Source: Bacteroidia bacterium
Lineage (GTDB): Bacteria > Bacteroidota > Bacteroidia > NS11-12g > UBA955
Assembly: GCA_023653095.1 (NCBI GenBank)
Contig: JAMNXP010000011.1
Location: 1-64,000, forward strand
Direction: 5' to 3'
DNA: 64,000 bases
Both the position numbers and the translations under genes were made by a program. The notes beneath the pieces are model-generated. The model did no database searches and was not told the DNA's origin. It was given only the letters and a program-made list of their open reading frames with translations. Positions 3,588 through 56,141 of this stretch are shown one piece after another (the first letter of the stretch is position 1; each line of letters starts with the position of its first letter).

Positions 3588-3774
3588 CGCTGCCCGCTGA
3601 CCGCTGACCGCTGACGGCTGCCCACTGATGGCTGATCGCTGATGGCTGATGGCTGACGGCTGACGGCTGACCGCTGACGACTGATGGCTGATCGCTGCCC
3701 GCTGACCGCTGTCGGCTGACGGCTGATCACTGATCACTGATCACCGATCACCGATCACCGAAAACCGTTCACCG
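3588..3774. repeat. Heptanucleotide array between paaD and kdsB
   Basis: About 26 consecutive 7-mers stay in register: first variants of CGCTGAC/GGCTGAT, then CACTGAT, then CACCGAT. The kdsB stop codon (3755-3757 on the minus strand) falls inside the array. Read from kdsB, the order is GGTTTTC, GGTGATC, AGTGATC, then CAGCNNTC-type units. Confidence 0.95.
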
Positions 3775-4498
3775 CCCCCAAATCTTCTGGAGTGTCAATA
3801 GACGGACTTTCGTAGTTGGTTTCGGCGAGTGTGATGCGTAAGCCGTGTTCTAACCAGCGGAGTTGTTCTAATGATTCGGCGAGTTCTAATGGGGTTTCAG
3901 AGAGTGTAGGCAGTTGTGTGAGAATGTGCGAACGGTAGGCGTACATGCCTATGTGTCGGTAGTTTTTTAGAGATGAAGCATTGCGATGGAACGGAATTGG
4001 ACTTCGAGAGAAATATAAGGCCTGTCTGTGAATGCCGCAGACTACCTTTACCCGATTGGGATTGGGTAAGTCGGCGGGAGATAGTTCTATTTTTAAGGTG
4101 GCTATGTCCGTGGGGACTGTAAAAGCATCCCCCGAAAAACAATCCAACAAAGAAAAAACCTGACTTGCTTGTATGAAGGGTTCGTCGCCTTGGAGGTTCA
4201 CAATGACTTCGCAGTTCCACCCCAGAATTTCAAGGGCTGCGGCGCAACGGGCGGTTCCGTTGGGGAGTTCGGGTGGGGTCATGACAACGGCCACGCGACT
4301 GCCAAATTCTGAAAGTACCGCTTGTTCTATTCGGGAGTCATCGGTGGCCACGCAAACGCCTGTGAATCCGTCGCGAACACAGCTTAATGCCGACTCTACG
4401 GTTCTGACAATCATGGGTTTACCGTTGATGAGTGCGAGCGGTTTCTCGGGGAAACGCGTGCTGCCGATTCGGGCAGGTATGATGATTCCGTAGGTCAT
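3755..4498 (-). CDS. kdsB: 3-deoxy-manno-octulosonate cytidylyltransferase (CMP-KDO synthetase)
   Basis: A 247-residue nucleotidyltransferase that activates KDO with CTP for lipopolysaccharide inner-core synthesis. The N-terminal signature IIPARIGSTRFPEKPL is the CTP-binding loop. VNLQGDEPFI, HIGMYAYR and LEQLRWLEHG follow in the order expected for KdsB. The start overlaps the stop of the upstream phosphatase gene in an ATGA arrangement, so the two are probably translationally coupled. The last codons (NGFR, then TGA) are made of heptamer-array sequence, so the original stop seems to have been replaced. Confidence 0.96.
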   Translation of the reverse strand: MTYGIIIPARIGSTRFPEKPLALINGKPMIVRTVESALSCVRDGFTGVCVATDDSRIEQAVLSEFGSRVAVVMTPPELPNGTARCAAALEILGWNCEVIVNLQGDEPFIQASQVFSLLDCFSGDAFTVPTDIATLKIELSPADLPNPNRVKVVCGIHRQALYFSRSPIPFHRNASSLKNYRHIGMYAYRSHILTQLPTLSETPLELAESLEQLRWLEHGLRITLAETNYESPSIDTPEDLGAVNGFR

Positions 4499-5559
4499 TC
4501 TCCGAAAGCTTGCAATATTTTTGAGTGTAAGGTATTGTTTTCGTAGACGCCTTTGAAGAGCTCTGATTGTGGACCAAAACTAAATACAGGAACGGGAATT
4601 CCGGTGTGATCTTTGGTTGAAAATTTTGAAACTGGGCGACCCGCAGCTTTGTCATAGCTTGGCATCGATAACCCTCCGGTTTCATGGTCAGCGGTAATGA
4701 TGACCAAGGTTTCGCCGTTTTCTTTGGCCCAAGCGCCAATGGCGCCGATGGTTTTATCGAAATCTAAAGTTTCGGTGATGACGTAATCAGCATCGTTGTC
4801 GTGTCCGCCCCAATCAATTTGACTTCCCTCAATCATCAAGAAAAAGCCGTTGGGATTTTGAGATAAGTTGCGAATGGCGGTCATGCTGGCATCAAGCAAG
4901 AAATCGCCGCGTCCATCGCGTTGTTTGGGCACATTGTTGCTGGTATCGTAGAAGGCAATAAACTTTGGCGATACAATCTTTTTAAGGGAATCTTTGCTGC
5001 ATACAAATCGTTGATATCCAGTTTGTGAGAGTTTGCTGCTATCGAACCAAGGATATCCGCCGCCAATGGCAACGTCAATGAATCCGCCGTAAAAATCATT
5101 GGCAATTTCCTTGTCCATGTAACGACTCACTTGGTGAGCGTAAAACGAAGCAGGTGTAGCGTGTGTAAGTCCGCAAGTAGCAACCAAACCTGTTCCTTTG
5201 CCTTTGACGTGTAACATTTCAGAAAGGGTGAAGGCCGGAGTAGAATCTGCGCGAACTCCAATGGCTTTGTTGTAGGTTTTTTCTCCGATGGAAATGGCGG
5301 TTGCACCGGCTCCTGAATCAGTAACCCAATTGCTTGAGCTGGAGGTTTTACTCAGTCCGATGTGTTCTACCAGATTGAAAACCTGTAAGTTATCTTTGGT
5401 ACTGGCTTGAGCGGCAGACCATTGAGCTAAGCCGGTTCCGTCACCAATTAACAGAATAATGTTTTTAGGTTTTTTTGGGGACGTTGACACGGTTGGGGCC
5501 TGTGAAAATGCAACATTTACTGCAGAGATTAAAAGAGATGCCAAAAGGATTCTTTTCAT
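4495..5559 (-). CDS. Alkaline phosphatase, secreted
   Basis: A 354-residue periplasmic or exported phosphomonoesterase with a signal peptide (MKRILLASLLISAVNVAFSQ). Metal and active-site motifs of the alkaline phosphatase family are present: LIGDGTG (about 37-43), the nucleophile Ser82 in VTDSGAGATA, a DWGGHDND block, and ADHETGG near the C terminus. It is shorter than E. coli PhoA, as usual for Bacteroidota versions. A TAACTTTG box lies only 4 bp upstream of the ATG. Its last bases overlap kdsB, an odd pairing of phosphate scavenging with LPS precursor synthesis. Confidence 0.93.
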   Translation of the reverse strand: MKRILLASLLISAVNVAFSQAPTVSTSPKKPKNIILLIGDGTGLAQWSAAQASTKDNLQVFNLVEHIGLSKTSSSSNWVTDSGAGATAISIGEKTYNKAIGVRADSTPAFTLSEMLHVKGKGTGLVATCGLTHATPASFYAHQVSRYMDKEIANDFYGGFIDVAIGGGYPWFDSSKLSQTGYQRFVCSKDSLKKIVSPKFIAFYDTSNNVPKQRDGRGDFLLDASMTAIRNLSQNPNGFFLMIEGSQIDWGGHDNDADYVITETLDFDKTIGAIGAWAKENGETLVIITADHETGGLSMPSYDKAAGRPVSKFSTKDHTGIPVPVFSFGPQSELFKGVYENNTLHSKILQAFGE

Positions 5560-5563
5560 GGTG

Positions 5564-5571
5564 CAAAGTTA
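5564..5571 (-). promoter_or_regulatory. -7 element of the alkaline phosphatase gene
   Basis: On the minus strand TAACTTTG matches TAnnTTTG and is followed after CACC by the ATG at 5559. Transcription would start at or very near the start codon, giving an almost leaderless mRNA. No TTTG -33 box at the usual distance was found. Confidence 0.5.
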
Positions 5572-5682
5572 ACGCCAAAACGTGGGCTTTTCTTTAAGGT
5601 AGCAATAAGTAATCGTGAATTGAGTGTGTATGTTCACAGTATTTTCGATAAGTGGTTGTATTTTCGTGGTTGAAATTTCATT

Positions 5683-7305: not shown

Positions 7306-7309
7306 TTAT

Positions 7310-8296: not shown

Positions 8297-8303
8297 ATTT
8301 AAA

Positions 8304-12510: not shown

Positions 12511-14544
12511 TTATTCTTTAATGATTTTATCAATGAAATAACCCTCTCGGGTCTTTATTGAAACGAAGTAGATTCCCGGTAAAAGGTATTCAATGTTAAT
12601 GGAAGATTCTTGACTGTCAATATGTTGAATATGGGCTCCAGATGAATTGTATATGTCAACTCCGATCATGTTGTCAAGTTTCCAAGAGATTAAACCCTGG
12701 GTTGGATTTGGATAAATTTTGAAGGGGTTATATTTTTTTAGTTTATAGGTGGATACAATTTCACTGATTTCAACCTGATAAAATGATGTGTCATTCCCAA
12801 ATTGGTTTGCCGCGATGCATTGAATCAAGAATTTACCTGTTTTTTGATAAGAATGCAGAACCCAACGTTGATTCAGATTTGAATCGGTACCACCATCACC
12901 AAATTTGTAATAAAATTGAGAATTTAAAGCGCCTTTGTAATTGACGGTGATATGATTGAAATCAGCATGCTCAATGTCAAAATCGCTGATTGGGGCCTTG
13001 GATAATCGAATGATAGATCCTGAATAATCACCAAGATAAGGTCTGTTTAGTTTCTTAAAACCATAATCGAGGTCGGCTCTTTTATCGAAATATGGTGAAA
13101 TGTAGCGTTGATTTGATTTGGATACAAAAATAGTGGGATAGATGGTTAGAGCTTGAATGTCATCATTTCGAGCCCATGCTAGATTTCCATTAATAAAGTA
13201 TTCACCCGTGTATTTGCCCTTGTTAAGCGGATATTTAAATTTCGGTGAGCCATCCATGTCAACCCGACTCACATTGGGGTTTGCAGCGGAATTATCCCCG
13301 TATAAAAAGATAAGTGAATCACCATCTGAATAGGCGTGTAAAACATTCTGTGGGAATCCAACGGTGTAAATTTTCTTTTCGGAAGAATGGTAAGTAAATA
13401 AATTGTTATTGAACAAGTTTAACTTACTCCATTGGGAGTTTGCCCCATCCAATTTAATTGAATCCATACCCGATGTTAAAAACCAAAATCCGTTTTTCAG
13501 AATCCCATATCCTACAAATGAAGGATTTATGGTATCAGATGTTTGAATATTATGAAACTGATCCAATTCCCAATTTTCCATATCAAGAACCATCCAAGAA
13601 AAATAACTTCGATTCGTATTAAAGTCGTTTGGTACAGGAAAAGTATTGAGGTTGCCGGCGTTAAGTTTAAAGTGTTTTTGAGTTTGGAATTTTGGATCTG
13701 TAAGTTTAGACAAATAAGTACCTGCAAATAAGATTTTTGAATTCATTGAATGAGATTGTCCACTTGTTGAATTCGAGGGAATTGGAAAATTTCCAATGAG
13801 TGAATTGATACATTGATTGGTTTTAAAATCATATTGTATAAAACACCCGTTGACTAGGGAATCGGGGAGTGCATTATCTTTGGGGATAAAAGAACTGAGC
13901 GACGAAGAAGCTATCCATGAACTGTAACGGTATAAAAAAATGCAATATTTGTTTGAGTTAGCCCAAATTAATCGCGATCTATAATCATTTGAATATGCAC
14001 TCCACGCATTTATAATGCTTACATTGCCATCTTTGCTTACTTTCAATAGGCCCCAAATCGCGTATTCAGGAAGGTCAATTTGTTGTATTCTTGAATGTTC
14101 TTGGTAAATATGTAGAGAGTCACCGGTGATTTTGCAGAACAACAATAAATCATCACCAATTAATGTAGTATTAAAGAGGGTTATTTTTCCTAGGGATGAT
14201 TTTAGAGATGTAGCAGTCAAGTTTAGCGCCCAATTAGTCTTGTAATTTGAGAAGTTGCAAATAGCAAGGTCATTATTATTGAAAGTTTGCATTTTGATGC
14301 TAGACATGGCAAATCCCGATTGATCTGCTAGAGCAATACTATCTAAATTAGCAGATTGATTTTGATTGGGAAATTGATTCCCCCAAATACAATAAAAGCT
14401 ATCTTGCGCATAAGGCTCAATTCTAGCCGAATTAAATAAATTAATTTCTTTATTGGCCCAATGGAGAGCATAATCCGTCTTTTGTGCCTGAAGCATCGAC
14501 GTGAATCCAAAGAAAATCAAAATAAATTTTAGCGACTTTGTCAT
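12511..14544 (-). CDS. T9SS-exported propeller/PKD protein (paralogue of the protein at 58583-60610)
   Basis: A 677-residue protein with signal peptide MTKSLKFILIFFGFTSMLQA. The long N-terminal part is beta-rich and propeller-like; a PKD-like module near residues 545-615 contains YYKFGDGGTDSN. The C-terminal type A sorting domain starts at FKIYPNPTQGLISW. It aligns along its whole length with the 675-residue protein at 58583-60610, sharing segments such as NLTATSLKS, MDGSPKFKYPLNKGKY and SKAPISDFDIE. Both paralogues lie beside an AAA ATPase/RloB pair, here in divergent orientation. The function is unknown; surface location is inferred. Confidence 0.82.
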   Translation of the reverse strand: MTKSLKFILIFFGFTSMLQAQKTDYALHWANKEINLFNSARIEPYAQDSFYCIWGNQFPNQNQSANLDSIALADQSGFAMSSIKMQTFNNNDLAICNFSNYKTNWALNLTATSLKSSLGKITLFNTTLIGDDLLLFCKITGDSLHIYQEHSRIQQIDLPEYAIWGLLKVSKDGNVSIINAWSAYSNDYRSRLIWANSNKYCIFLYRYSSWIASSSLSSFIPKDNALPDSLVNGCFIQYDFKTNQCINSLIGNFPIPSNSTSGQSHSMNSKILFAGTYLSKLTDPKFQTQKHFKLNAGNLNTFPVPNDFNTNRSYFSWMVLDMENWELDQFHNIQTSDTINPSFVGYGILKNGFWFLTSGMDSIKLDGANSQWSKLNLFNNNLFTYHSSEKKIYTVGFPQNVLHAYSDGDSLIFLYGDNSAANPNVSRVDMDGSPKFKYPLNKGKYTGEYFINGNLAWARNDDIQALTIYPTIFVSKSNQRYISPYFDKRADLDYGFKKLNRPYLGDYSGSIIRLSKAPISDFDIEHADFNHITVNYKGALNSQFYYKFGDGGTDSNLNQRWVLHSYQKTGKFLIQCIAANQFGNDTSFYQVEISEIVSTYKLKKYNPFKIYPNPTQGLISWKLDNMIGVDIYNSSGAHIQHIDSQESSINIEYLLPGIYFVSIKTREGYFIDKIIKE

Positions 14545-14574
14545 ATCTATATGAAATGGTTCAATTTACGCATT

Positions 14575-14781
14575 TTATGAAGTGGTCGGGTTTGGTTGGA
14601 CTAAATTAGTATAATTCTTAATTGATTTAAAATTAGTAAGTAATGTAATAATAAATGAGGGACCCGGTGAAGGTGGGTTTGTTACGGTCCTAGAAAGAAT
14701 CACATTCAAACTTGAATCTAAGATTTTGTACGTAACAGTGCATGGTGGGTTTACGTAGCTTTCGTTAATAGAAAATGACAC
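14575..14781 (-). CDS. Small protein, truncated relative of the protein at 20766-21101
   Basis: A 68-residue frame whose first 40 residues nearly repeat those of the 111-residue protein at 20766: MSFSINESYVNPPCTV, then ILDSSLNV and NPPSPGP. After that the two diverge, and this copy lacks the Cys-rich C-terminal half. It has no signal peptide. It lies 30 bp upstream of the T9SS gene on the same strand, as its longer relative also precedes a large T9SS gene. It may be a decayed copy or a leader-like small ORF. Confidence 0.5.
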   Translation of the reverse strand: MSFSINESYVNPPCTVTYKILDSSLNVILSRTVTNPPSPGPSFIITLLTNFKSIKNYTNLVQPNPTTS

Positions 14782-25013: not shown

Positions 25014-26785
<1,772 letters not shown>

Positions 26786-28628: not shown

Positions 28629-28637
28629 AGTATTTAT

Positions 28638-28780
28638 TGGTGGTCGGTGGTCGGTGATCGGTGATCGGTGATCGGTGATCAGCCGTCAGCCGTCAGCGGT
28701 CAGCGGTCAGCCGTCAGCCGTCAGCCGTCAGCCGTTAGCCAAAGACCAAAGACCAAAGACCAAAGACCATCGATCAGCTG
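28638..28780. repeat. Heptanucleotide array upstream of the T9SS gene
   Basis: GGTGGTC and GGTGATC units, then CAGCCGT/CAGCGGT units, then four CCAAAGA units, all in 7-bp register. This is one of the few arrays lying next to the 5' end of a gene (28628). Confidence 0.93.
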
Positions 28781-28871
28781 AAATTCAAATTACTAAGCAT
28801 TAAGACATCAATTTTCTTGATTTGGTTGCTCGGTGGCTAATAATTTCTACATAGTCAGATTAAAACTTATG

Positions 28872-28940
28872 GCCGACAGCGGTCAGCCGTCAGCCAAAGA
28901 CCAAAGACCAAAGACCAAAGACCAGCAATCAGCGGTTAGC
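28872..28940. repeat. Short heptanucleotide array at the 3' end of the AAA gene
   Basis: CAGCGGT and CAGCCGT units, four CCAAAGA units, then CAGCAAT. Between this array and the one ending at 28780 lie about 90 bp of ordinary sequence in which nothing was recognised. A small GC hairpin (AGCGGC/GCCGCT) follows next to the AAA gene stop. Confidence 0.92.
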
Positions 28941-30725: not shown

Positions 30726-31748
30726 ATGTTTAAACGTGTAAGTTTTGCATTTATCGCAATTTTGCTTTTGGCTCAGTGCGGATCCCCCAAAAAACAGCAA
30801 GCCCCAGGACTGATTCCATCTAAAACTGGTTTAACATCTGTACGTGTGGCATTTTACAATTTGGAGAATCTATTCGATACCATTAATGGCCCGAACGACG
30901 ATTCTGAATACCTTCCCACATCTGAAAAGCCTTGGAATACTGCTCGTTACCAAAGTAAATTGAAAAATATGGCGCGCGTCATTGATTCCATTCAACCCCA
31001 AATTTTGGGTGTCTGCGAAATCGAAAACCGTACCGTTCTTTTAGATTTGATCAAAACATCCACATGGTTGAAAAGCATCAAGGCCGAAGTAGTTCACTTT
31101 GAATCGCCCGATAAACGCGGCATCGATGTTGCTATACTAAAGTCAAGTCAATGGACTGTTAAACAGACAGATACGTTGTGGGTTCCCACCGAAAATCCGG
31201 ATAAACCCACTCGACACATCCTCATGGCCACCTTCCAAAACGGAAAATCAGAACTATCGATGTTCGTAAATCATTGGCCATCAAGGAGTGGGGGAGAGCA
31301 ATTGAGCAGACCTTTGCGCTTTAACGCTGCAAAAACCTTGAAAGACTATATTGATGCCCGCCCTGAAATGAAAAATTGGGTAGCGGTTGGCGACTTCAAT
31401 GACAATCCCGAAGATTCAAGTTTGCGCTACATTTTGGGCGCATCAGACGAGCAGTCGAACAAAATCAATCTTGCCTACCTTCACCGATTGGCTCAACCCG
31501 AAACCGGCACTTTGAAGTACAACGGTCGTTGGGACATGTTTGACCAGATCATTGTGAGCAGGTATTTATACCATTTAGGCCCAGAAAACGCCATTCCGCA
31601 GGTACAAATTTACCATCGTAATTGGCTCTTGCAGCAAGACGGCAAGTTTCAGGGCTATCCGTTGCGCACCTTCGGCGGCCGCACCTATTTGAACGGTTAT
31701 TCAGACCATTTGCCGGTGTTTGTTGATTTGGAGATTGGTGATCGGTGA
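30726..31748 (+). CDS. Endonuclease/exonuclease/phosphatase-family lipoprotein
   Basis: A 340-residue EEP-fold hydrolase with a lipoprotein signal (MFKRVSFAFIAILLLAQCG; lipobox LAQC). Family motifs: RVAFYNLENLFDT at the start, ILGVCEIENR carrying the metal Glu, DVAILK, VNHWPSRSGGEQ, VAVGDFNDNPED, and the final GYSDHLPVFVDL with the catalytic Asp-His. The upstream TTG at 30693 was rejected because it would disrupt the signal. The final residues (IGDR, then TGA) are encoded by GGTGATC units of the following array. Substrate unknown. Confidence 0.88.
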   Translation: MFKRVSFAFIAILLLAQCGSPKKQQAPGLIPSKTGLTSVRVAFYNLENLFDTINGPNDDSEYLPTSEKPWNTARYQSKLKNMARVIDSIQPQILGVCEIENRTVLLDLIKTSTWLKSIKAEVVHFESPDKRGIDVAILKSSQWTVKQTDTLWVPTENPDKPTRHILMATFQNGKSELSMFVNHWPSRSGGEQLSRPLRFNAAKTLKDYIDARPEMKNWVAVGDFNDNPEDSSLRYILGASDEQSNKINLAYLHRLAQPETGTLKYNGRWDMFDQIIVSRYLYHLGPENAIPQVQIYHRNWLLQQDGKFQGYPLRTFGGRTYLNGYSDHLPVFVDLEIGDR

Positions 31749-31876
31749 TCGGTGATCGGTGATCGGTGATCGGTGATCGGTGATCGGTGATCGGTGGTCG
31801 GTGGTCGGTGATTGGTGGTCGGTGATTGGTGATCGGTCAATCTGAAAACCGAAAACCGAAAACCGAAAACCGATAA
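31737..31876. repeat. Heptanucleotide array between the EEP lipoprotein gene and pyrG
   Basis: About nine consecutive GGTGATC, then GGTGGTC/GGTGATT units, then a block of AACCGAA units. The plus-strand gene stop (31746-31748) lies within the second unit. Confidence 0.95.
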
Positions 31877-31883
31877 CCGTAAT

Positions 31884-33581: not shown

Positions 33582-33671
33582 CGGTAGGTCGGTGATCGGT
33601 GGTCGGTAGGTCGGTGGTCGGTGGTCGGTGGTCGGTAGGTCGGTGGTCGGTGGTCGGTAGGTCGGTAGGTG
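33582..33671. repeat. Heptanucleotide array upstream of pyrG
   Basis: Mainly GGTGGTC units, with some 8-bp GGTAGGTC variants that break the 7-bp register. It lies upstream of pyrG and 83 bp before the four-helix-bundle gene. Confidence 0.92.
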
Positions 33672-33754
33672 GATTTTGCGGAAAGTGCAAATCTTAATTT
33701 GTAAATTGTGTTTATCGCCAAGGGATTACAAAAGAATCTAACTTGATTTGAAAT

Positions 33755-34108
33755 ATGAATAATTTTAAAAAATTAAAAATTTGGAATCAATCAATTGATT
33801 TGAGTCATTCAGTTTTTGTATTTACAAAATCTTTACCAAAACCAGATTCATATGATGTTGTTAATCAGTCACGAAGAGCGGCAGTTTCAATTGCTTCTAA
33901 CATTGCAGAAGGTTGCGGCCGAGGATCAAACAAGGATTTTTGTCGTTTTCTTAATATTGCCTTAGGTTCCTCTTACGAATTGGAAACGCAATTAATCATT
34001 TTAAAAAGGCTCTTTGCAAAAGAAACTGCAAATTTGGAGGCTGAAACCGTCTCCATCCAGAAACAGATTCAATCTTTGATTAAAAAACTAAATTCAACGG
34101 GAAACTGA
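33755..34108 (+). CDS. Four-helix-bundle protein (S23/TIGR02436 family)
   Basis: A 117-residue protein of the S23 family, whose members are often encoded by intervening sequences of 23S rRNA or as stand-alone genes. Typical blocks: KLKIWNQSIDLSHSVF, then QSRRAAVSIASNIAEGCGRG and FLNIALGSSYELETQL. The role is unknown; related bundles act as nucleic-acid-binding accessory proteins (Avd in diversity-generating retroelements). It stands alone between two heptamer arrays, and its TGA begins the array at 34106. Confidence 0.9.
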   Translation: MNNFKKLKIWNQSIDLSHSVFVFTKSLPKPDSYDVVNQSRRAAVSIASNIAEGCGRGSNKDFCRFLNIALGSSYELETQLIILKRLFAKETANLEAETVSIQKQIQSLIKKLNSTGN

Positions 34109-34224
34109 TCACCGACGACCGACAACCGAAAACCGATCACTGATCACCGATCACTGATCACCGATCACCGATCACCGATCACCGATCACCGATCACCGAT
34201 CACCGATCACAGACAACCGATCAC
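34106..34224. repeat. Heptanucleotide array between the four-helix-bundle gene and ilvE
   Basis: A convergent junction filled with GATCACC units (about eight in a row), with GACGACC, GACAACC and GATCACT variants at the left. Both flanking genes take their stop codons from it: TGA at 34106-34108 on the plus strand and TGA at 34221-34223 on the minus strand. Confidence 0.95.
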
Positions 34225-35294
34225 CGACTACCAACCAACACAATCCACCCCATCTCATCTTCAATTTTTTGTAATTTGAGGTTGTCGAGGAAGGTTTTGA
34301 TGGCCGTTGAGACTTCGTGGTTGGGTGATTCCATGACGGAGTAGTAGGTGCCGTTGCGGCCAAAGCCGTCTAGGTTGATGAGGGTGGCTGCGGTTCCTGT
34401 GATGAAAAGTTCGGAGATGGATCCAGATTGTTGCTTTTCAATCAGTTCGGTGATGGAAATGGGGCGTTCCTCTACTTCGTAGCCAAGGTGTTTTAGTCCC
34501 TTGATGACAGAATCACGGGTGATGCCCGCAAGCATGGTGTTGGTTAAAGAAGGAGTCACAACGGTTTTTCCGTACACGGCAAAGAAGTTAGTGGTTCCGG
34601 TTTCTTCCACCCACTCGTGTTCAATGGGATCGGTCCATAAAATTTGATCGTAACCCTCTTTTTGGGCCAATGCTGTAGGATAAAGTGCTGCACCGTAGTT
34701 GCCGGCGCATTTGGTGAATCCAACTCCTCCGGGAGCTGCACGACTGTATTCGTTTTCCACTTTTACGCGGAGGGCCTTGTTGTAATATGGTCCAACAGGA
34801 CAAGCAAAGATGGCAAAACAGTAATTGTCAGATACTTTTACTCCAATGTAATCATCGGTGGCGAACATGTATGGACGAATGTATAGGGCGCCGCCTTCGG
34901 TGCGGGGAACCCATGCACGATCAATGTCAATGAGTTGGTTCAGACCGGCCATGAAAAGGTCTTCGGGGATTTCAGGCATGGCCATGCGAACGGCAGATCG
35001 GTTTAGGCGAGCTGCGTTATCTGTGGGACGAAAAATGGTGATGTCGTGATCGTTTTTTGAGGACGCGAAAGCCTTCATTCCCTCGAAAATAGATTGACCA
35101 TAATGAATGGCAGAGGTGGCTGGACTTAAAGATAAATTTCCGTAAGGAACGATTCTTGGGTTGGTCCATTCACCGTTTTTGTAGTCAGCAAGGAACATGT
35201 GATCGGTGAACATTTTGCCAAAACCAATGTTCTGGGGGTCAAATTCAGAAATTCTGCTTTCTTTAACCTTTTCTACTGTAATTTCGAACCTCAT
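34221..35294 (-). CDS. ilvE: Branched-chain amino acid aminotransferase
   Basis: A 357-residue fold-type IV PLP enzyme of the BCAT group, making or degrading Leu, Ile and Val. Seen: FGKMFTDHMFLADY, IHYGQSIFEGMKAF, YIRPYMFATDDYIGV, CAGNYGAALYPT with the PLP lysine nearby in GFTKCAGNYG, and EETGTTNFFAVYG. Length fits the bacterial/eukaryotic long BCAT class. A TAATTTTG box (35300-35307, minus strand) is only 5 bp before the ATG. The tail GSR-TGA is array sequence. Confidence 0.95.
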   Translation of the reverse strand: MRFEITVEKVKESRISEFDPQNIGFGKMFTDHMFLADYKNGEWTNPRIVPYGNLSLSPATSAIHYGQSIFEGMKAFASSKNDHDITIFRPTDNAARLNRSAVRMAMPEIPEDLFMAGLNQLIDIDRAWVPRTEGGALYIRPYMFATDDYIGVKVSDNYCFAIFACPVGPYYNKALRVKVENEYSRAAPGGVGFTKCAGNYGAALYPTALAQKEGYDQILWTDPIEHEWVEETGTTNFFAVYGKTVVTPSLTNTMLAGITRDSVIKGLKHLGYEVEERPISITELIEKQQSGSISELFITGTAATLINLDGFGRNGTYYSVMESPNHEVSTAIKTFLDNLKLQKIEDEMGWIVLVGSR

Positions 35295-47055: not shown

Positions 47056-48162
47056 ATGCAGTCAATTTTACTCGATAGAATAGATGCCATTGACCCAGTG
47101 AAATACGGCAAAACCCGTAATTTTATCTGGGGAAGCGTTTCCGAACTATCGCCTTACGTCTCTCGCGGAGTCATTTCAACCAAGCAAATCAGAGACCGGA
47201 TTTTAGAGAACGGACATACCCAAAACGAACGTTTATTTCAACAACTCGCTTGGAGAGATTATTTCCAAAGGGTGGGGCAGGTGCATCCCAATTTGGATCA
47301 GAAAAACGTCAAAAACGACCCCAGTCATTTCTTGTCTAGCCAAATGCCCACCGCCATCCTCGATGCAAATACCGGAATTCAGGCCATCGACGACGGACTC
47401 AAACGTCTTTACGATACCGGGATGATGCACAATCACATGCGCATGTACGTGGCCATGCTGGTTTGCAACGTGGCCCGAACCGATTGGAAAACCGGCGCTC
47501 GTTGGATGTTTCACCACCTCAAAGACGCTGATTTTGCCTCCAATCACCTGAGCTGGCAATGGGTTTGCGGCGCCTTCAGCAGCAAGCAGTATTTCGCCAA
47601 TCAAGAGAACATCAACAAGTACTGCAATACCAAGCAGTTGGGCACCTTTTTAGACGTTGATTACGATCGGTTTTACCGCATGGATGTCCCCGCTGTGCTC
47701 CAGTCTCGTTCTGATTATTCCATTGATAAACAACCTGTTGGAGTGGGTGTTGAAGAACTTCAGCATCACCCAAATTTTGATCTCAACGCTCCAATTGCGC
47801 TGTATCACCCCTACCATTTAGACCCTCATTGGCGCAGCTCGGAACCCGTAAATCGCCTCTTTTTATGGGACCCCAACTGGCTCGAACGCTTCCCGGTGTC
47901 GCTCAAATTCCAGTCCTTCATTCAAGAACTTGCGCAAGAAATTCCCTCTTTAATTTTTGTTTCGGGGGACGTTAAATCGTTGAAGACTCACTATCCTCAT
48001 CTTCAAATTATCACCCGCGAGCACCCTCATTTTTCAACTTCCCTTTCCGGGGGATTCACCGTCGATGACCGCGACTGGATGTTCCCGTCTGTTGCAGGCA
48101 ATTATCCCTCGTTTTTCGCCTTTTGGAAGGCCGCCGAAAAATCCCTAAAAAACCGTAGATGA
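47056..48162 (+). CDS. Photolyase/cryptochrome-like FAD-binding protein with an unusual domain order
   Basis: A 368-residue protein. It lacks the usual N-terminal antenna-binding alpha/beta domain and starts directly in the FAD-binding helical domain (NFIWGSVSELSPYVSRGVIS, QLAWRDYFQRV, then MMHNHMRMYVAMLV and NHLSWQWVCGAF with the flavin-contacting residues, ending near 195). The C-terminal 140 residues contain NRLFLWDPNWLERFP and a FVSGDVKSLKTHYP segment resembling part of the missing alpha/beta domain. Possible roles are photorepair or light sensing. Neighbouring flavin reductases could reduce its FAD. Its stop overlaps the next gene by 4 bp. Confidence 0.8.
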   Translation: MQSILLDRIDAIDPVKYGKTRNFIWGSVSELSPYVSRGVISTKQIRDRILENGHTQNERLFQQLAWRDYFQRVGQVHPNLDQKNVKNDPSHFLSSQMPTAILDANTGIQAIDDGLKRLYDTGMMHNHMRMYVAMLVCNVARTDWKTGARWMFHHLKDADFASNHLSWQWVCGAFSSKQYFANQENINKYCNTKQLGTFLDVDYDRFYRMDVPAVLQSRSDYSIDKQPVGVGVEELQHHPNFDLNAPIALYHPYHLDPHWRSSEPVNRLFLWDPNWLERFPVSLKFQSFIQELAQEIPSLIFVSGDVKSLKTHYPHLQIITREHPHFSTSLSGGFTVDDRDWMFPSVAGNYPSFFAFWKAAEKSLKNRR

Positions 48163-48782
48163 ATATTTCAAAGCAAGATATATTAAACATGGAAACCCGC
48201 TACCGGGCGAATTTCATCAATTCTTTGGGCGGATTCAAGAGTGTGGTTTTGGTGGGCACCAAGAGTCAATCAGGGCTTGAGAATGCCTCAATTTTCAATT
48301 CCTTGTTCCATTTGGGAGCCAATCCCGCTTTATGCGGTATGATTGTACGTCCAGACGTTTCAGAGCGACACACTTTAGAAAACATCGAAGAAACGGGCTT
48401 TTACACCCTCAATCACATTCGTCCAGAATTCGTGGAAGCGGCTCACCATTGCAGTGCGCGTTATCCGAGAGAAATTTCCGAATTCAAAGCATCGGGACTA
48501 ACACCCGAATATCTTTTTGATTTTCATGCTCCCTTTGTAGGAGAGAGCCACTTGAAATTTTCGGTAGAATTCCGCGAAAAACACCCTCTTGCCATCAACG
48601 GAACCATCCTCATCATTGGCGAAATCATGCAAGTCATCCTCCCCGAAGACTGCCTCCAATCCTCAGGATTCATCGACTTAGAGCTCGCCCAAACGGTCAC
48701 ATGCTCAGGCTTAGACTCTTACCACACCACTCAAAAGTTGGTACAGTTGCCGTATGCGAAGCCGGTGATCGGTGATCGGTGA
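48159..48782 (+). CDS. Flavin reductase-family (FMN-binding split-barrel) protein
   Basis: A 207-residue protein with the split-barrel pattern: FINSLGGFKSVVLVGTKSQS, ASIFNSLFHLGANPALCGMI, and ETGFYTLNHI. It starts inside an ATGA overlap with the photolyase-like gene, so expression is coupled. Its last five residues (VIGDR) and stop are made of GGTGATC units, so the natural C terminus may have been lost or replaced. Confidence 0.85.
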   Translation: MNISKQDILNMETRYRANFINSLGGFKSVVLVGTKSQSGLENASIFNSLFHLGANPALCGMIVRPDVSERHTLENIEETGFYTLNHIRPEFVEAAHHCSARYPREISEFKASGLTPEYLFDFHAPFVGESHLKFSVEFREKHPLAINGTILIIGEIMQVILPEDCLQSSGFIDLELAQTVTCSGLDSYHTTQKLVQLPYAKPVIGDR

Positions 48783-49060
48783 TCGGTGATCGGTGATCGG
48801 TGATCGGTGATCGGTGATCGGTGATCAGCAGTCAGCGGTCAGCAGTCAGCGGTCAGCCGTCATCCAAAGACCAAAGACCAAGGACCAAAGACCAAGGACC
48901 AAAGACCAAAGACCAAGGACCAAAGACCAAAGACCAAGGACCAAAGACCAAAGACCAAGGACCAAGGACCAAGGACCAAAGACCAAGGACCAAGGACCAA
49001 AGACCAAGGACCAAAGACCAAAAACCAAGGTCCAAGGACCAAGGTCCAAAGACCAAAGTC
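48763..49060. repeat. Largest heptanucleotide array of the window
   Basis: About eight GGTGATC units, then CAGCAGT/CAGCGGT units, then a tract of about 30 units alternating GACCAAA and GACCAAG, with some GGTCCAA-type variants at the end. Its translations in every frame are artefacts of the repeat. Confidence 0.96.
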
Positions 49061-49065
49061 CAATA

Positions 49066-49760: not shown

Positions 49761-49787
49761 CCAGCCGTCAGCCGTCAGCCGTCAATG
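49761..49787. repeat. Short CAGCCGT repeat
   Basis: Three CAGCCGT units stand alone between the lipoprotein gene and the DUF2256 gene, the smallest array seen. Confidence 0.8.
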
Positions 49788-49948: not shown

Positions 49949-49955
49949 TTGTACT

Positions 49956-50152
49956 GGTTATCAGTTATCGGTAGTCGGTTTTCAGTTAACGGCTGAGGGC
50001 TGATGGCTGTCGGCTGATCACCGATGGCTGTCTGCTGTCTGCTGCCCGCTGTCTGCTGCCCGCTGAAAGCTGAAAGCTGACCGCTGATCACCGATCACCG
50101 ATCACCGATCACCGATCACCGATCACCGATCACCTACTACCGACCACCTTAA
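49956..50152. repeat. Heptanucleotide array at the 3' end of the glycosyltransferase gene
   Basis: Read from the glycosyltransferase gene: GGTAGTA, about seven GGTGATC units, CAGCGGT, CAGCTTT x2, CAGCGGG/CAGCAGA units, CAGCCAT, then ragged TTATCGG-like ends. The gene stop (50130-50132) is inside it. Confidence 0.94.
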
Positions 50153-50900
50153 CAATTCCCCCCCGGAAATACTTGATGTAACCTTCTGTCATTTGGGAGA
50201 AACAGATCACAAATCCCGTCCAACCGTAGAGGAGGCCGCGATTGAAAAAGTAGTTTCGGGCGAATTTGACCACCGGACTGAAAACCATCTTTAACAACAA
50301 AGTTGGCCAGCCCAATGTTTTGGCGTAGCGGGAACCGATTTTGCCGTATTGCAGCGATTTTAAGAAAACTTCCTTGCGGGTTTTATATGAATAATGCAAC
50401 AAATCGCCCTCCAAAGAGCGCTTCGGAAGTCCACGCTTAACCTTGAAACGATCGTGTGGATTGTTACCCTGCCAAGAGCCGTCCATACGGTTCCACAACC
50501 GAAGTTTTCTGTCGGGATACCACCCGCAGCCCTTCACAGCTTGCGCCCCCACAAAATTCAAACGGTTCATGTAGTAGCCAGAACTTTTAAACCCTAATTT
50601 TTTTTCTCGGAGGATGGATTCAATCAACGCCTCCGACAGTTCTTCGTCCGCATCTAAACTCAGCACATAATCATATTGGGCATGCTCTTTTGCGAAATTT
50701 TTCTGCTCAATATGTCCCTCGAAAGCATTAAAAATGACCCTCGCACCCAAATTTTCAGCGATTTCCACGGTGCGGTCTTGGCTGAAACTGTCAACAATCA
50801 AAATATCATCTGCCACTTCGCGCAACGACTTGATGCAGCGCGCAATGCAATCTTCCTCGTTAAAAGTAATGACTACGGCCGAAAGTTTCTGAATGGACAC
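50130..50900 (-). CDS. Glycosyltransferase family 2, LPS core-type
   Basis: A 256-residue GT-A enzyme. LSAVVITFNEEDCIARCIKS is the N-terminal strand-loop, ILIVDSFSQDRTVEIAE and YDYVLSLDADEELSE carry the nucleotide- and metal-binding Asp (DxD equivalent DAD). The FEGHIEQKNFAKEHA block is typical of LgtF/KDO-core-glucosyltransferase relatives. GTG at 50900 follows a TATCTTTG box by 4 bp. The C terminus VVGSR is array-derived. Confidence 0.88.
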   Translation of the reverse strand: MSIQKLSAVVITFNEEDCIARCIKSLREVADDILIVDSFSQDRTVEIAENLGARVIFNAFEGHIEQKNFAKEHAQYDYVLSLDADEELSEALIESILREKKLGFKSSGYYMNRLNFVGAQAVKGCGWYPDRKLRLWNRMDGSWQGNNPHDRFKVKRGLPKRSLEGDLLHYSYKTRKEVFLKSLQYGKIGSRYAKTLGWPTLLLKMVFSPVVKFARNYFFNRGLLYGWTGFVICFSQMTEGYIKYFRGGIVKVVGSR

Positions 50901-50904
50901 GATT

Positions 50905-50912
50905 CAAAGATA
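50905..50912 (-). promoter_or_regulatory. -7 element of the glycosyltransferase gene
   Basis: TATCTTTG on the minus strand, only 4 bp before the GTG start codon, another apparently leaderless case. It sits in the 21-bp gap after rnhB. Confidence 0.5.
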
Positions 50913-50921
50913 GTGAAATCC

Positions 50922-51545: not shown

Positions 51546-51552
51546 TTAATTA

Positions 51553-51674
51553 GGTTTTGGTCCTTGGTCTTTGGTCCTTAGCCAACAGCCATCAGTTTCA
51601 GCTTTCAGCTCTCAGCCGTCAGCTCTCAGCCGTCAGCCGATCACCGATTACCGATCACCGATCACCGATCAATG
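51553..51674. repeat. Heptanucleotide array between rnhB and the MFS gene
   Basis: Read from the MFS gene: GGTGATC/GGTAATC, then GGCTGAC, GAGCTGA and AAGCTGA-type units, then GACCAAA/GACCAAG. The MFS stop codon at 51669-51671 is inside the first partial unit. Confidence 0.93.
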
Positions 51675-53093: not shown

Positions 53094-53173
53094 TAGGTTA
53101 TTGTTTGCGTTACAATATGGAATTGCCAAAACTATGAATTTTTTTGAAGAAATCAATTGATTATTTTCGTGGC

Positions 53174-54343
53174 ATGCAGCCTTTGCAAAGCAAATTACCT
53201 TGGGTGGGAGAGTCCATCTTCTCAAAAATGTCGAGAATGGCACTCGAAGAACAAGCGCTGAACTTGTCGCAGGGATTCCCTGAATTTCAGCCGCCATCGG
53301 AGTTGATTGAGGCCATTCATCAGGCATCGTTGATGGGCAAAAATCAGTACACCCCCATGCCCGGCACCCCAGAATTGCGCGAAGCCATTGCCCTCAAAGA
53401 GCTGCAAATTCATCAGCACACGGTCAATCCACAGACTGAAATTACCGTCACTCCAGGTGCCACAGCCGGACTATACACTGCCATTCAAGCGCTGATTCAC
53501 CCCGGCGACGAAGCCATCATCATTGAGCCCGCTTACGACAGTTACCGCCCTGCCATAGAGCTCGCAGGCGGCGTTTGCTTGCCCGTTCAATACAACTTAA
53601 CCGACTTTTCTTTTCCTTGGGATGACCTTACGGCCGCCATCAATGAAAAAACCCGATTGATCATCATCAACACTCCCCACAATCCGCTGGGAGTGATCTT
53701 TTCGGCCGCCGATTTTGACCGCTTGTATCAACTGATTGAAAACACATCTATCCGGGTGATTTCAGACGAAGTGTATGAGCACATTGTTTTTGATGGACAA
53801 ACACACAGCAGCATTTTATCGCATCCCGGATTGAAATCTAGAGCCGTAAAAGTGTCCTCTTTTGGCAAAACCTTCCATTCTACGGGTTGGAAAATGGGAT
53901 ATCTAATGGCGCCTGCCGACATCACCCAAGAAATTCGCAAAGTGTTCCAGTTTTTGGCCTTTTCGGTTCATTCCACCACCCAATTCGGTTTGGCTCAATA
54001 CATGAACGCCCATGCCGAGTGGGAGCCTTCTTTGTCTGATTTTTACCAAAAGAAGCGCGATTTATTCATCGACGCGTTGGGCAACAACACTGCTTTCAAG
54101 GTCATGCCTTGTCAGGGATCTTATTTTGCCGTATTGAATTACGGAAATTTATCGAATTTGTCCGATCAAGAATTTGCCGAAATCGTCACCCGCCAATTCA
54201 AACTGGCGTCTATTCCCATCAACGCCTTCATCACAGAGCAGCCGGTAACGAAACTTTTGCGTTTTTGTTTTGCAAAAAACGACGATACCCTTCTAAAATC
54301 GGTTGAAATTTTGCACCGCATTTCCACTCAATATCACGACTAA
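53174..54343 (+). CDS. Class I aminotransferase, methionine/glutamine transaminase (YbdL-like)
   Basis: A 389-residue fold-type I PLP enzyme. LNLSQGFPEFQPPSELIEAI, NQYTPMPGTPELREAI, NTPHNPLG, ISDEVYEHIVFDG and the PLP lysine segment VKVSSFGKTFHSTGWKMGY are all present, as in YbdL-type methionine aminotransferase. An omega-amidase gene starts 3 bp downstream, which supports glutamine/methionine 2-oxo acid transamination. The ATG at 53174 is preferred to a TTG at 53144. A TATTTTCG box lies 4 bp before it. Confidence 0.9.
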   Translation: MQPLQSKLPWVGESIFSKMSRMALEEQALNLSQGFPEFQPPSELIEAIHQASLMGKNQYTPMPGTPELREAIALKELQIHQHTVNPQTEITVTPGATAGLYTAIQALIHPGDEAIIIEPAYDSYRPAIELAGGVCLPVQYNLTDFSFPWDDLTAAINEKTRLIIINTPHNPLGVIFSAADFDRLYQLIENTSIRVISDEVYEHIVFDGQTHSSILSHPGLKSRAVKVSSFGKTFHSTGWKMGYLMAPADITQEIRKVFQFLAFSVHSTTQFGLAQYMNAHAEWEPSLSDFYQKKRDLFIDALGNNTAFKVMPCQGSYFAVLNYGNLSNLSDQEFAEIVTRQFKLASIPINAFITEQPVTKLLRFCFAKNDDTLLKSVEILHRISTQYHD

Positions 54344-54346
54344 AAC

Positions 54347-55090
54347 ATGAACGTTTATCTGGTTCAAACCGAGCTCAAATGGGAAAATCCCAACGCCAAT
54401 CTCCTGCGTTTGACTTGGCACATCAATCAAACTCAGCCGCAATCGCTGATTGTGCTCCCCGAAATGTTCGCCACCGGATTCACCATGAATCCGCAGCAGC
54501 ACGCCCAGTCGATGTCTGATTTGGCGGTCACTTGGATGAAAGAAATGAGTCAAGACCGCTGCATCTGCGGAAGTCTGAGCATCTCCGAAAACGGCCATTT
54601 CTACAATCGTTTTTTGGCCATATACAACGGCGAAATCATTGCCCAATACGACAAGCGGCACCTTTTCTCATACGCCGGCGAGCACGAGCATTATCAGTCG
54701 GGTACTGACGCTGTTGTTTTTGATTTCTTGGGATGGAAAATCGCTCCCTTCATCTGTTACGACCTCCGATTCCCCAGCTGGATCCGCCAACAAGCGGGTG
54801 TTGATTTGATGTTATTCGTGGCCAACTGGCCCAAATCGAGAATGTTAGCATGGAACACGCTCTTACGCGCTCGCGCCATCGAAAACCAATGTTACGTAAT
54901 TGGCGTAAACCGCATTGGCGACGACGGCAACAGCATTCCCCATTCAGGATGCTCACAAGTCATCAACTTCGCCGGCGACTACCTCATCGAACCCCAATCA
55001 GACCGCGAGATGCTGTTACACCAATACTTGGAGCAGGGACCATTGACCGCCTTCCGCGCGCGGTTTCCGTTTTTGGGTGATGGTACCTAG
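54347..55090 (+). CDS. Omega-amidase of the nitrilase family (YafV-like)
   Basis: A 247-residue hydrolase with the Glu-Lys-Cys triad: Glu in VLPEMFATGF, Lys in YDKRHLFSYAGE, Cys in FICYDLRFPSW. This arrangement is typical of omega-amidases that deamidate 2-oxoglutaramate and 2-oxosuccinamate. Paired with the upstream aminotransferase it forms the glutamine transaminase/omega-amidase pathway. Its TAG stop and the final GDGT residues are formed by the TACCTAG repeat array. Confidence 0.9.
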   Translation: MNVYLVQTELKWENPNANLLRLTWHINQTQPQSLIVLPEMFATGFTMNPQQHAQSMSDLAVTWMKEMSQDRCICGSLSISENGHFYNRFLAIYNGEIIAQYDKRHLFSYAGEHEHYQSGTDAVVFDFLGWKIAPFICYDLRFPSWIRQQAGVDLMLFVANWPKSRMLAWNTLLRARAIENQCYVIGVNRIGDDGNSIPHSGCSQVINFAGDYLIEPQSDREMLLHQYLEQGPLTAFRARFPFLGDGT

Positions 55091-55313
55091 TACCTAGTAC
55101 CTAGTACCGGGTACCTGGTACCGGGTACCTAGTACCGAGTAGATGGTAGATGGTAGATGGTAGATGGTAGATGGTAGATGGTAGATGGTAGATGGTATCG
55201 GGTTTCGGGGGGGGCAGGGGATGCTGACCGCAGACTATGGACTATGGACAATGGACTACGGACCACAGACCATGTACCCTCTACCATCTACCATGTACCA
55301 TGTACCATGTACT
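55079..55313. repeat. Heptanucleotide array with inverted arms (GTACCTA, GTAGATG ... CTACCAT, GTACCAT)
   Basis: Seven-base units run in register: GTACCTA/GTACCGG, eight GTAGATG, a 40-bp GC-rich gap, GGACTAT/GGACCAC, then CTACCAT and GTACCAT. The right part is complementary to the left part, so a long hairpin or cruciform can form. It separates convergent genes and may act as a bidirectional terminator. It supplies the stop codons of both neighbours. Confidence 0.94.
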
Positions 55314-55941
55314 ATAAACTCACAAACCCATTCAAGAATAACTCGATATCTTGTAAATTCGATTTTAAGAGATTCTCGCTGGTGTAGGTCAATAGTTGGA
55401 TGGTGCCCGATTCGTTCGAATAATAGTAACCGTAATAAACAAATTTGATGCCTTGAATGGTGCCAGCCAATTGCATCAACAAGACCTTTTGGCCGTTTAC
55501 CATTCGGTATTCCTCTTTGACTACTTTGATGTCAGGGGCTGCTTTTTTCGCGTTTTCGATGGCAATCGTCTTGAGTGATTCTATGGGAATTTGAAGTCGT
55601 TCGGTGATGAGTATCGCATACAAATCGTCTTGCTTCTTCCGGAATTGATATTCAAACACGTCGTTTGCTCCTCCTTTGGTAAATGTCCAAACTTTAGGAT
55701 TAATCCAAATACCCACATTTACTTTTGAGCTTTTTACCAAAAACGTCGATAGCGCAGATTTAGAAAATATTTGTTGGTTTAGGGGGACTTCAGTTTCCTC
55801 GTGTTCCTCTTCGTGAAGGTACTTCCATGTGCCGTCTTCCAACAAAACAACTTCGTCTCCCGACTCAGTAATGGCATTGATTTGAGCGTTTATCATCCTC
55901 ACAGACAAAAACAAAAAGAGGGAAAAGATCAGTTTTTTCAT
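55312..55941 (-). CDS. Secreted protein of unknown function
   Basis: A 209-residue protein with signal peptide MKKLIFSLFLFLSVRMINAQ. It begins with VVLLEDGTWKYLHEEE, a motif common in small Bacteroidota exported proteins, and continues with a beta-rich fold (VNVGIWINPKVWTFT, IKFVYYGYYYSNES). No catalytic motif is seen. It converges on the omega-amidase gene across the inverted array. Confidence 0.68.
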   Translation of the reverse strand: MKKLIFSLFLFLSVRMINAQINAITESGDEVVLLEDGTWKYLHEEEHEETEVPLNQQIFSKSALSTFLVKSSKVNVGIWINPKVWTFTKGGANDVFEYQFRKKQDDLYAILITERLQIPIESLKTIAIENAKKAAPDIKVVKEEYRMVNGQKVLLMQLAGTIQGIKFVYYGYYYSNESGTIQLLTYTSENLLKSNLQDIELFLNGFVSL

Positions 55942-55993
55942 GCTGTAAACTTTGTGTGCTCGAAAGTATCACTTGTTTTGGAGTATTCCAAGA

Positions 55994-56141
55994 GGGTACT
56001 TGGTAGCGGGTAGCGGGTAGCGGGTAGCGGGTAGCGGGTATCGGGTATCTGGTAGCGGGTAGCGGGTGTCAGGTGCCAGACTAAAGACTACGGACCACGG
56101 ACTACCGACCACGGACTACGGACCACGGACCACGGACCAAC
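55994..56141. repeat. Heptanucleotide array GGTAGCG/GACCACG
   Basis: Twenty-one units in register: GGTAGCG x5, GGTATCG, GGTATCT, GGTAGCG x2, then GGTGTCA, GGTGCCA, and alternating GACTACG/GACCACG. The change of motif is gradual, one or two bases per unit, which shows how one motif grades into the next. Confidence 0.95.

Follow-up and report, generated by a model that had tools for sequence, protein, structure and literature searches.

A 64,000-nucleotide (nt) stretch of a Bacteroidia bacterium genome (the window: positions 1 to 64,000 of contig JAMNXP010000011.1, assembly GCA_023653095.1, GTDB lineage NS11-12g; UBA955) contains many arrays of tandem 7-nt units, and one pair of arrays encloses a gene for a four-helix-bundle protein of the S23/IVP family. 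Comparison across genomes showed that the arrays and the arms of S23/IVP units have anatomy, polarity and often motif in common. On balance, we lean towards reading the heptad arrays as arms of insertion units akin to the intervening sequences (IVS) with S23/IVP genes, most of them being copies that lack the open reading frame (ORF). An earlier interpretation of the window, the first-pass annotation, had described dispersed arrays of many related 7-nt motifs; it was incomplete, lacking the polarity of the arrays, their composite order GGTGATC - TCAGCSG - AAAGACC, and the S23/IVP gene at 33755-34108. Over-representation of heptamers is already known, and the arrays can be filed under two known kinds, heptamer repeats and IVS; the new point is the link between heptad arrays and S23/IVP units.

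A complete S23/IVP unit between pyrG and ilvE

The unit in the window sits between pyrG and ilvE, with a GGTGGTC arm on one side of the ORF and a GATCACC arm on the other (Table 1). The upstream arm, 33582-33670, gives a 21/21 match to repeated GGTGGTC and base-pairs with the right arm when the unit is folded as RNA. Complementarity between the two arms scored 83, a value that none of 100 shuffles reached (arm shuffles here and below preserve base composition only), and the 666-nt RNA of the unit folds so that the arms form a single long stem enclosing the ORF, at -241.8 kcal/mol, compared with -165.1 +/- 9.1 for 20 shuffles (z -8.4). The nearest solved structure to the encoded protein is XCC0516 (2gsc_A, E 3.7e-17). 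An S23/IVP ORF and terminal inverted repeats forming a stem are both features of an IVS, but the window unit lies between protein genes with no rRNA match in its locus (L315), whereas the S23/IVP ORF at 14392-14727 of Azospirillum lipoferum plasmid AZO_p2 (L352) lies inside a 23S rRNA gene (RF02541, 2134 bits) and is therefore a classic IVS. The Azospirillum ORF is missing from the plasmid's (incomplete) gene table.

Inverted arms flank S23/IVP genes in several phyla

The occurrence of inverted arms at S23/IVP genes is well supported. Within a family set of 70 genomes, including 14 congeners, PF05635 matches were found in 43, and the best-scoring locus was taken from each of 30 of these. Arms more complementary than all shuffles flanked 24 of the 30 loci (22 of 27 oriented first, and 2 of the 3 loci L323, L326 and L329, which the first orientation step did not catch and which were scored afterwards), corresponding to 16 of 20 distinct sites when loci were grouped by eye according to their flanks. 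A period-7 array was present within 12 of the 30. In a second Bacteroidota family, 5 of 6 IVP loci had inverted arms (by eye three sites, two of them positive). A plasmid set, for which 19 of 22 matching records were taken and 3 Riemerella records like the one taken were omitted, gave 14 positives of 19 from four phyla, namely Riemerella, Azospirillum, Gemmatirosa and 11 cyanobacterial loci (Pseudanabaena, Nostoc edaphicum, Nostoc C052, Nostoc 53789 pNsp_c, Stanieria, Anabaena 90, two Calothrix brevissima plasmids, Picosynechococcus, Aulosira and Geminocystis). No arms were found at the plasmid loci of Calothrix 7716, Nostoc HK-01, Nostoc 53789 pNsp_a, Calothrix 4105 (split ORF) and Fischerella (short ORF). 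Inverted arms were also seen at one extra Nostoc IVP from a control stretch, at one Flavobacterium haoranii IVP, and at a second IVP of G002, an array-rich congener (99% complete) in which an IVP fragment had none.

Control genes rarely showed this arrangement: 9 of 300 control ORFs had inverted arms, as did 3 of 136 annotated coding sequences on three of the same cyanobacterial plasmids. Fisher tests of the three IVP sets (24/30, 5/6 and 14/19) against controls gave nominal p values of 1e-23, 5e-7 and 3e-13, with relatedness ignored as in all p values given here. Across the two Bacteroidota families and the other phyla, the arms consist of short repeats with 7 as the commonest period. A strong upstream array was present at 34 of 56 IVP loci, with periods of 7 (17 loci), 14 (5), 8 (5), 15 (4) and others (3), and a strong downstream array at 27 of 56, with periods of 7 (17), 14 (4), 8 (4) and 10 (2), compared with 12 and 8 of 300 controls. 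Period 7 or 14 was the strong upstream period in 22 of the 56 loci versus 7 of 300 controls, and GC skew fell across the IVP ORF in 26 of 27 cases versus 175 of 300 control ORFs.

Insertion sites of the units varied. An IVP lies between sdhA and sdhB in G064, G065, G066, G071, G033 and G025, with arms that differ by genome (by eye; the two genes were identified with family models in G025 and by eye in the other five genomes). IVP units with repeat arms also occur inside CRISPR operons, between cas6 and cas4 on the Pseudanabaena (L336) and Anabaena 90 (L341) plasmids, and the armed Picosynechococcus unit (L345) sits between cas10/cmr2 and a cmr3-family gene.

Dispersed motifs recur in S23/IVP arms

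Arm motifs could be compared with dispersed motifs in 11 array-bearing genomes for which an IVP locus had been fetched and oriented. Both arms carried the dispersed motif of their own genome in the source genome (G000), G002 and G003, and one arm did so in G033 and G025. A second IVP of G014 lies between tracts of GGTAAGT, the dispersed motif of that genome. At a gap on G002 contig C17 there is an IVP ORF, and the orthologous G000 gap (C1:635189-635426) has no ORF but keeps the leader, with 96% identity over 78 nt. The IVP proteins of G000 and G002 are identical at only 62 of 117 residues (53%), a much greater divergence than that of the flanking pyrG (97%) and ilvE (93-94%). The sole IVP fragment in G000 (C1:648073-648186) has no heptad arms by eye.

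Period 7 dominates the window and the genome

The heptad arrays are real, as both Tandem Repeats Finder (TRF) and a lag scan found them in the window. At a criterion of 28 bp and 80%, lag 7 covers 1637 bp of the window, and among lags 2-40, multiples of 7 aside, only 17 (45 bp), 22 (77 bp) and 29 (55 bp) are non-zero. For wider scans the whole source genome (2,035,987 bp in 14 contigs, 75% complete, the window being C3:1-64000) was assembled from stretches, with genes called by our own crude caller. Period 7 covers 11,886 bp of this genome when periods 2-60 are scanned, and among periods not divisible by 7 the maximum is 424 bp (period 17). A 21-bp criterion gave 132 period-7 arrays totalling 12,988 bp, which merge into 112 elements, versus 0, 4, 1, 5, 0, 0 and 0 arrays of periods 5, 6, 8, 9, 10, 11 and 13. 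A genome-wide search of this kind had been proposed in the first-pass annotation; because period 7 far exceeds its non-multiples in both window and genome, equal abundance of other periods is excluded, multiples of 7 aside. The sample of G002 (385,759 bp, partly picked around known array hits) held 27 period-7 arrays and none of periods 5, 6 or 8-11, and in the pyrG neighbourhoods of 80 other Bacteroidota (1.49 Mb) period 7 was the commonest with 18 arrays, followed by period 8 with 6. An assembly artefact is unlikely as the source of the arrays because an independent congener assembly has arrays at corresponding loci.

Most of the initial description held, with some adjustments. Arrays do reach about 40 units (26497-26777 spans 281 bp and 48760-49063 has ~43 units), and the strict 7-base register is kept generally but not in 33582-33670, where 8-nt slips give TRF periods of 22 and 29. 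The tracts are mostly intergenic, but 8 of the 132 G000 arrays lie inside called ORFs, 7 ORFs in all. A zone given as array-free from 9.3 to 26.5 kb is so, but in fact begins at 3.8 kb. The many related motifs amount to 65 heptamer classes with at least two perfect copies, but few classes dominate: GATCGGT occurs in 51 arrays, GGTCTTT in 35, and nine classes in at least 10. The common order within composites, by eye, is GGTGATC - TCAGCSG - AAAGACC or its reverse complement. A pattern of five GGT at 7-nt spacing matched 14 of the 70 family genomes; a backwards control also scored in array-rich genomes, so the pattern counts arrays and not the triplet GGT. Motifs listed for family genomes vary by lineage (GGTTATT, GGTAAGT, GGTTTCT and others). 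Long array-free stretches of the source genome include C1:48-390 kb, C2:80-229 kb and C12:28-98 kb, and GC is lower in parts of the array-free window.

Larger arrays share one polarity, and many arrays lie at gene ends

The larger ORF-less arrays share the polarity of the S23/IVP units. Classified by outermost family, 60 of the 64 elements of at least 90 bp comprised 36 that run from plus (G/T-rich) to minus (C/A-rich), 14 plus only, 10 minus only and none from minus to plus. The left half was richer in G+T than the right in 76 of 112 elements of all sizes and, at 90 bp or more, in 27 of 29 convergent, 9 of 9 and 11 of 15 tandem, 4 of 5 divergent and 4 of 6 contig-edge elements. For arrays within 25 bp of a gene, the outward strand, read from gene into array, was G/T-rich at 73 of 88 gene 3' edges and 14 of 14 gene 5' edges, versus an average of 0.50 at array-free gene edges. 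We rejected a pure stop-codon effect as the cause of this polarity: by inspection, GGTGATC gives stops in all frames and GGTCTTT gives none, yet both have the same polarity. Arrays occur within 300 bp of 129 gene 3' ends but of only 54 gene 5' ends; at 68 of the 129 the array begins before or no more than 10 nt past the end of the stop codon.

The same polarity was found within reading frames. In the lipid A gene lpxB of the source genome (C11:3297-4532; TIGR00215), an in-frame heptad insertion at C11:3823-4030 separates the YVGNPT and IALLPGSR segments. The linker between these segments also holds an insertion in lpxB of G002 (L138), of different motif but matching polarity. This linker is short in nine other congeners, and three congeners gave no match. 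An array is also contained in dxs (C4:123025-124848; TIGR00204). By eye, all three in-ORF tracts that have both polarities (lpxB in two species and C6:41966) run from plus to minus, and the other in-ORF tracts have a single polarity.

Arrays hold their loci while motifs are replaced

Comparison of the source genome with 420 kb of the ~2.5 Mb of G002 yielded 202 orthologous adjacent gene gaps, of which 10 have arrays in both species, 2 have them in G002 alone, none in G000 alone and 190 in neither. At 6 of the 10 shared gaps the motif is entirely different (by eye) while the array persists, in agreement with the first-pass claim that period is conserved more than sequence; flanking-gene DNA identity at these six is 75-87%. 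The other four gaps (87-97% identity) have type-1 units in both species, with differing copy numbers or units. Fast change of arrays was evident at C1:635189: between flanking genes with 96-97% identity, unit numbers differ in steps of 7. At 3 of the 10 shared gaps, the G002 counterpart is a poorer match to the G000 array than are at least 97 of the other 111 elements of G000; at 2 of the 10 no other element surpasses it. Type-1 arrays in G002 (C17, C25 and C10) were found only at the four gaps with 87-97% identical flanks, which suggests recent exchange.

Neighbouring genes differed between the species in relative orientation at 2 of 12 gaps with arrays (nuclease|pyrG and pyrG|ilvE) versus 0 of 190 others. 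The two are the sides of one flipped gene and therefore count as one event; in G002 the gap orthologous to 31727-31882 has another motif and pyrG is flipped.

Candidate protein partners

Sharing of a reverse transcriptase (RT) or transposase by array-bearing genomes, as raised in the first-pass annotation, or of an end-joining enzyme, was not supported for the three families searched (RT, Ku and Y1_Tnp). RT as the cause was rejected: PF00078 was found in 1 of the 14 congeners, the source genome itself, and is absent from G002, so it does not occur in every array-rich genome. The single G000 RT is a 292-aa ORF, retron-like by eye (C11:182-1060, minus strand, L041), and PF00078 was not found in the 13 other congeners. 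Ku (3 of 70 family genomes) and Y1_Tnp (24 of 70) were likewise rejected, each occurring in neither G000 nor G002. S23/IVP, in contrast to these, was found in 14 of 14 genomes with a GGT-heptad match versus 29 of 56 others (p 0.0005, ignoring phylogeny). No phage homologues of IVP were found at E 1e-5.

Elements of the window

The elements of the window, with the parts of the complete unit, are collected in Table 1. Derivation of the type-2 tracts at 55-56 kb from G002 was considered and dropped, as the neighbouring major facilitator superfamily (MFS) transporter and amidase genes were unmatched in G002. A short TCAGCCG run at 49762-49784 lies beside the element at 49990-50148. The window also carries a second dispersed repeat, a 17-bp tandem resembling GACTCACGCTTCGCTAG, at 3516-3566; it recurs at C1:41369-41400, C1:528193-528240 and elsewhere. 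The repeat lies near several heptad elements and is also present in G002; a 14-mer of it occurs 21 times in unmasked intergenic sequence. A type IX secretion system (T9SS) sorting domain was found among the window proteins; together with the relatives of pyrG it assigns the genome to Bacteroidota.

Table 1. Heptad elements and parts of the S23/IVP unit in the window
Feature	Position	Strand	Composition and evidence
Element between paaD (+) and kdsB (-)	3585..3768		GCTGACS to GATCACC; different-motif array in same G002 gap; TRF
Element starting in guaB stop codon	26497..26777		GGTGATC - TCAGCSG - AAAGACC, repeated composite; TRF, lag scan
Element of two blocks and a unique spacer	28636..28928		GGTGATC - TCAGCSG - AAAGACC; TRF
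Element between nuclease gene (+) and pyrG (-)	31727..31882		GGTGATC/GGTGGTC to GAAAACC; TRF
Upstream arm of IVP unit, G/T-rich	33582..33670	+	CGGTGGT units with slips; TRF periods 7/22/29
S23/IVP ORF of complete unit (four-helix bundle, PF05635/TIGR02436)	33755..34108	+	TIGR02436 111 bits, cut-off 24; PF05635 104.6 bits
Downstream arm of IVP unit, C/A-rich, to ilvE 3' end	34107..34227	+	GATCACC x17.3; TRF
Element of ~43 units overlapping stop codon of 48159-48782	48760..49063		GGTGATC x9 - TCAGCAG - AAAGACC/AAGGACC; TRF, lag scan
Element ending in stop of 50130-50900 (-)	49990..50148		GCTGTCT/GCTGACC to GATCACC; TRF, lag scan
Element ending in MFS-transporter stop	51586..51674		TCAGCTT/TCAGCCG to GATCACC; TRF
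Type-2 element	55079..55320		GGTACCT, GGTAGAT, GGACTAT, ATGTACC; set common in sampled G002; TRF
Type-2 element	55995..56141		GGTAGCG to ACGGACC; TRF

Relation to known heptamer repeats and intervening sequences

Heptamer excess is known from a survey by Mrazek quoted in PMC4679880, and Rehm et al. (2015) described heptameric simple repeats, GGGAATC in Xanthomonas and GGGGA(T/C)T in Nostoc (PMC4692102). According to that paper these repeats resemble the present arrays in being dispersed, mostly intergenic and built of 7-nt units, and in their outward G-rich polarity, as they lie near stops on the coding strand and near starts on the non-coding strand; they include inverted pairs (70 and 75 cases). 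The present arrays have the 7-nt units far above other periods and the G-rich edge polarity of such dispersed heptameric short tandem repeats (STRRs) or long simple sequence repeats (LSSRs), but whereas the Xanthomonas and Nostoc repeats have one motif type per species, 65 classes occur here in composite order. The Xanthomonas and Nostoc repeats are not generally tied to mobile elements in PMC4692102, the main text of which does not contain 'intervening', '23S' or 'helix bundle', and the examined parts of that account describe neither a replacement of motifs between species nor genes flipped in place.

TAACTGA repeats were reported by MacGregor (2015) in Beggiatoaceae, cyanobacteria and five Bacteroidetes (PMC4679880). 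As portrayed there, they too have 7-nt units, overlap with stop codons, an admixture of other heptamers (in Bacteroidetes) and 7-nt indels between related strains, but unlike the present arrays those in the main genome mostly precede start codons in one orientation. MacGregor suggested that a TAACTGA-binding protein might itself be the mobile element; the main text of PMC4679880 mentions neither S23 nor helix bundle.

The 23S rRNA IVS of Coxiella has two to three tandem heptamers ahead of its S23 ORF, variable between strains (PMC4990558). Like the window unit, it is described there as having terminal inverted repeats that pair into a long RNA stem around an S23/IVP ORF, but it occupies helix 45 of 23S rRNA, from which RNase III removes it, whereas the window unit lies between protein genes. 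Dispersed ORF-less copies, as found here, are not described for the Coxiella IVS in the parts of PMC4990558 consulted. According to the same source, S23/IVP proteins have no known function and the solved S23p, from Xanthomonas campestris, is a pentamer. The solved protein closest to the window IVP is XCC0516, and X. campestris, the species of the solved S23p (PMC4990558), also has GGGAATC heptamers, which show the same polarity at gene edges (PMC4692102). The reverse transcriptase DRT10 also makes tandem-repeat DNA, but as described in PMC12632851 it needs RT and a non-coding RNA, and array-rich G002 has no RT. Open-access literature searches, on which alone we base the statement that the two are unlinked in print, returned no paper joining S23/IVP or four-helix-bundle proteins with dispersed heptamers.

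Origin of the arrays

The reading towards which we lean would have the following form. A complete unit would consist of a G-rich tandem heptad arm, a short leader, the S23/IVP ORF and a complementary C-rich heptad arm, and 33582-34227 is one such unit. Most arrays would be ORF-less units of the same polarity, left where insertion harms least, such as stop codons, operon gaps and protein linkers. Units would lengthen and shorten by 7-nt steps, the IVP oligomer may bind the heptads as DNA or as RNA stem and help to spread or keep them, and the ORF-less arrays may either descend from ORF-bearing units or be served by them in trans. Because G000 otherwise has one IVP fragment, we can only infer the descent of its ORF-less arrays from IVP units.

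Several results weigh against this reading. Against 112 elements, the source genome contains a single intact IVP and a single fragment, and a hidden Markov model search at E<=1 found no further IVP relic in its ORF-less elements. Unlike IVP units, which have matched arms, the ORF-less elements have neither ORF nor matched arms, and their arms match each other less than random pairs do (mean percentile 0.26 for 64 elements). Polarity is weak below 90 bp, where 29 of 45 elements show the sign that the nearer gene edge predicts and 16 do not. The dispersed motif was not in the fetched IVP locus of G014, G024, G060, G063, G065 or G073, and the G025 match is fitted equally well by a related species' motif. 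Own arms beat all 52 cross-pairings in only 13 of 27 loci, many of which share sites or motifs, and two Calothrix and two Nostoc loci of the plasmid set are near copies. The upstream period is not always 7, and 22 of 56 IVP loci have no strong upstream array. Finally, phylogeny confounds the association between IVP and arrays, the pattern matched just once or twice in several of the 14 array-bearing genomes, and IVP without dispersed arrays is common, as in the 29 of 56 family genomes above; 298 of 395 sampled Bacteroidota carry PF05635.

Plain slippage with a favoured 7-nt step, combined with spread by gene conversion and survival only outside coding sequence, would leave IVP genes as occupants of the same permissive gaps, an explanation we regard as unlikely. 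The excess of period 7 has long been noted and was put down to a polymerase contact of 7 nt (survey quoted in PMC4679880), whole-heptad unit differences separate the arrays at C1:635189 between flanks that are 96-97% identical, and in the 80 pyrG neighbourhoods period 7 has 18 arrays against at most 6 for any non-multiple period. Under slippage the polarity would come from selection on transcripts, with C/A-rich 5' leaders and G/U-rich 3' ends; the polarity at 3' and 5' gene edges fits such selection as well as it fits insertion. Slippage leaves unexplained that motifs common to tens of loci are nevertheless replaced at fixed loci between species, that plus-to-minus polarity also holds within ORFs (C6:41966 and the lpxB genes of two species), and that genomes without a GGT-heptad match, G004, G006, G007 and G011 among others, have armed IVP genes.

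The polarity data (36 plus-minus and 0 minus-plus of 60; outward G/T at 73/88 3' and 14/14 5' edges) would follow if a telomerase-like or other end-extending enzyme added G/T-rich heptads to the 3' ends of chromosome breaks, and the ends were then joined, sometimes with the fragment flipped. The two sides of an element often differ in motif, motif replacement at fixed loci resembles a change of telomerase template, and a bacterial tandem-repeat RT does exist in DRT10 (PMC12632851). We nevertheless consider this route improbable: G002 has no RT, neither G000 nor G002 has Ku, and a link to IVP is not predicted. The single gene flipped between two array gaps (2/12 versus 0/190 gaps changed, one event) fits rejoining, but recombination between inverted arrays could equally give flips. 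It is very improbable that the arrays are functional bidirectional terminators or insulators replacing hairpin terminators at gene ends. By our own crude rule, terminator-like hairpins are present in 4 of 40 convergent gaps (40-600 bp) with arrays versus 34 of 57 without, and by eye the pyrG end, which has arrays in G000 and G002, has hairpins in G005 and G007; loss of hairpins could, however, simply follow insertion. Arrays are found as well between genes in tandem or divergent orientation and within lpxB and dxs, and the anti-matched arms of ORF-less elements led us to reject a hairpin or terminator explanation of the arms.

A broader proposal, that S23/IVP is the trans-acting partner of bacterial heptamer repeats in general, is tentative and at present rather unlikely. 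The pentamer's binding step would set the 7-nt period and the protein would spread or renew the arrays, so that rRNA IVS, cyanobacterial STRRs, the Xanthomonas GGGAATC repeats and the present arrays would all belong to a single class of mobile element, with tandem repeats at its ends and a pair of protein and site that changes fast.

In these close species a genome feature keeps its place and polarity while its sequence is swapped, and one gene has been flipped in place between tracts. The shared anatomy of heptad arrays and S23/IVP units provides the first candidate protein partner for a known but unexplained class of repeats and joins two open questions, the cause of heptamer excess and the role of S23/IVP. 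Both become testable, through binding of IVP to arm heptads and through change of the heptads alongside change of the IVP.

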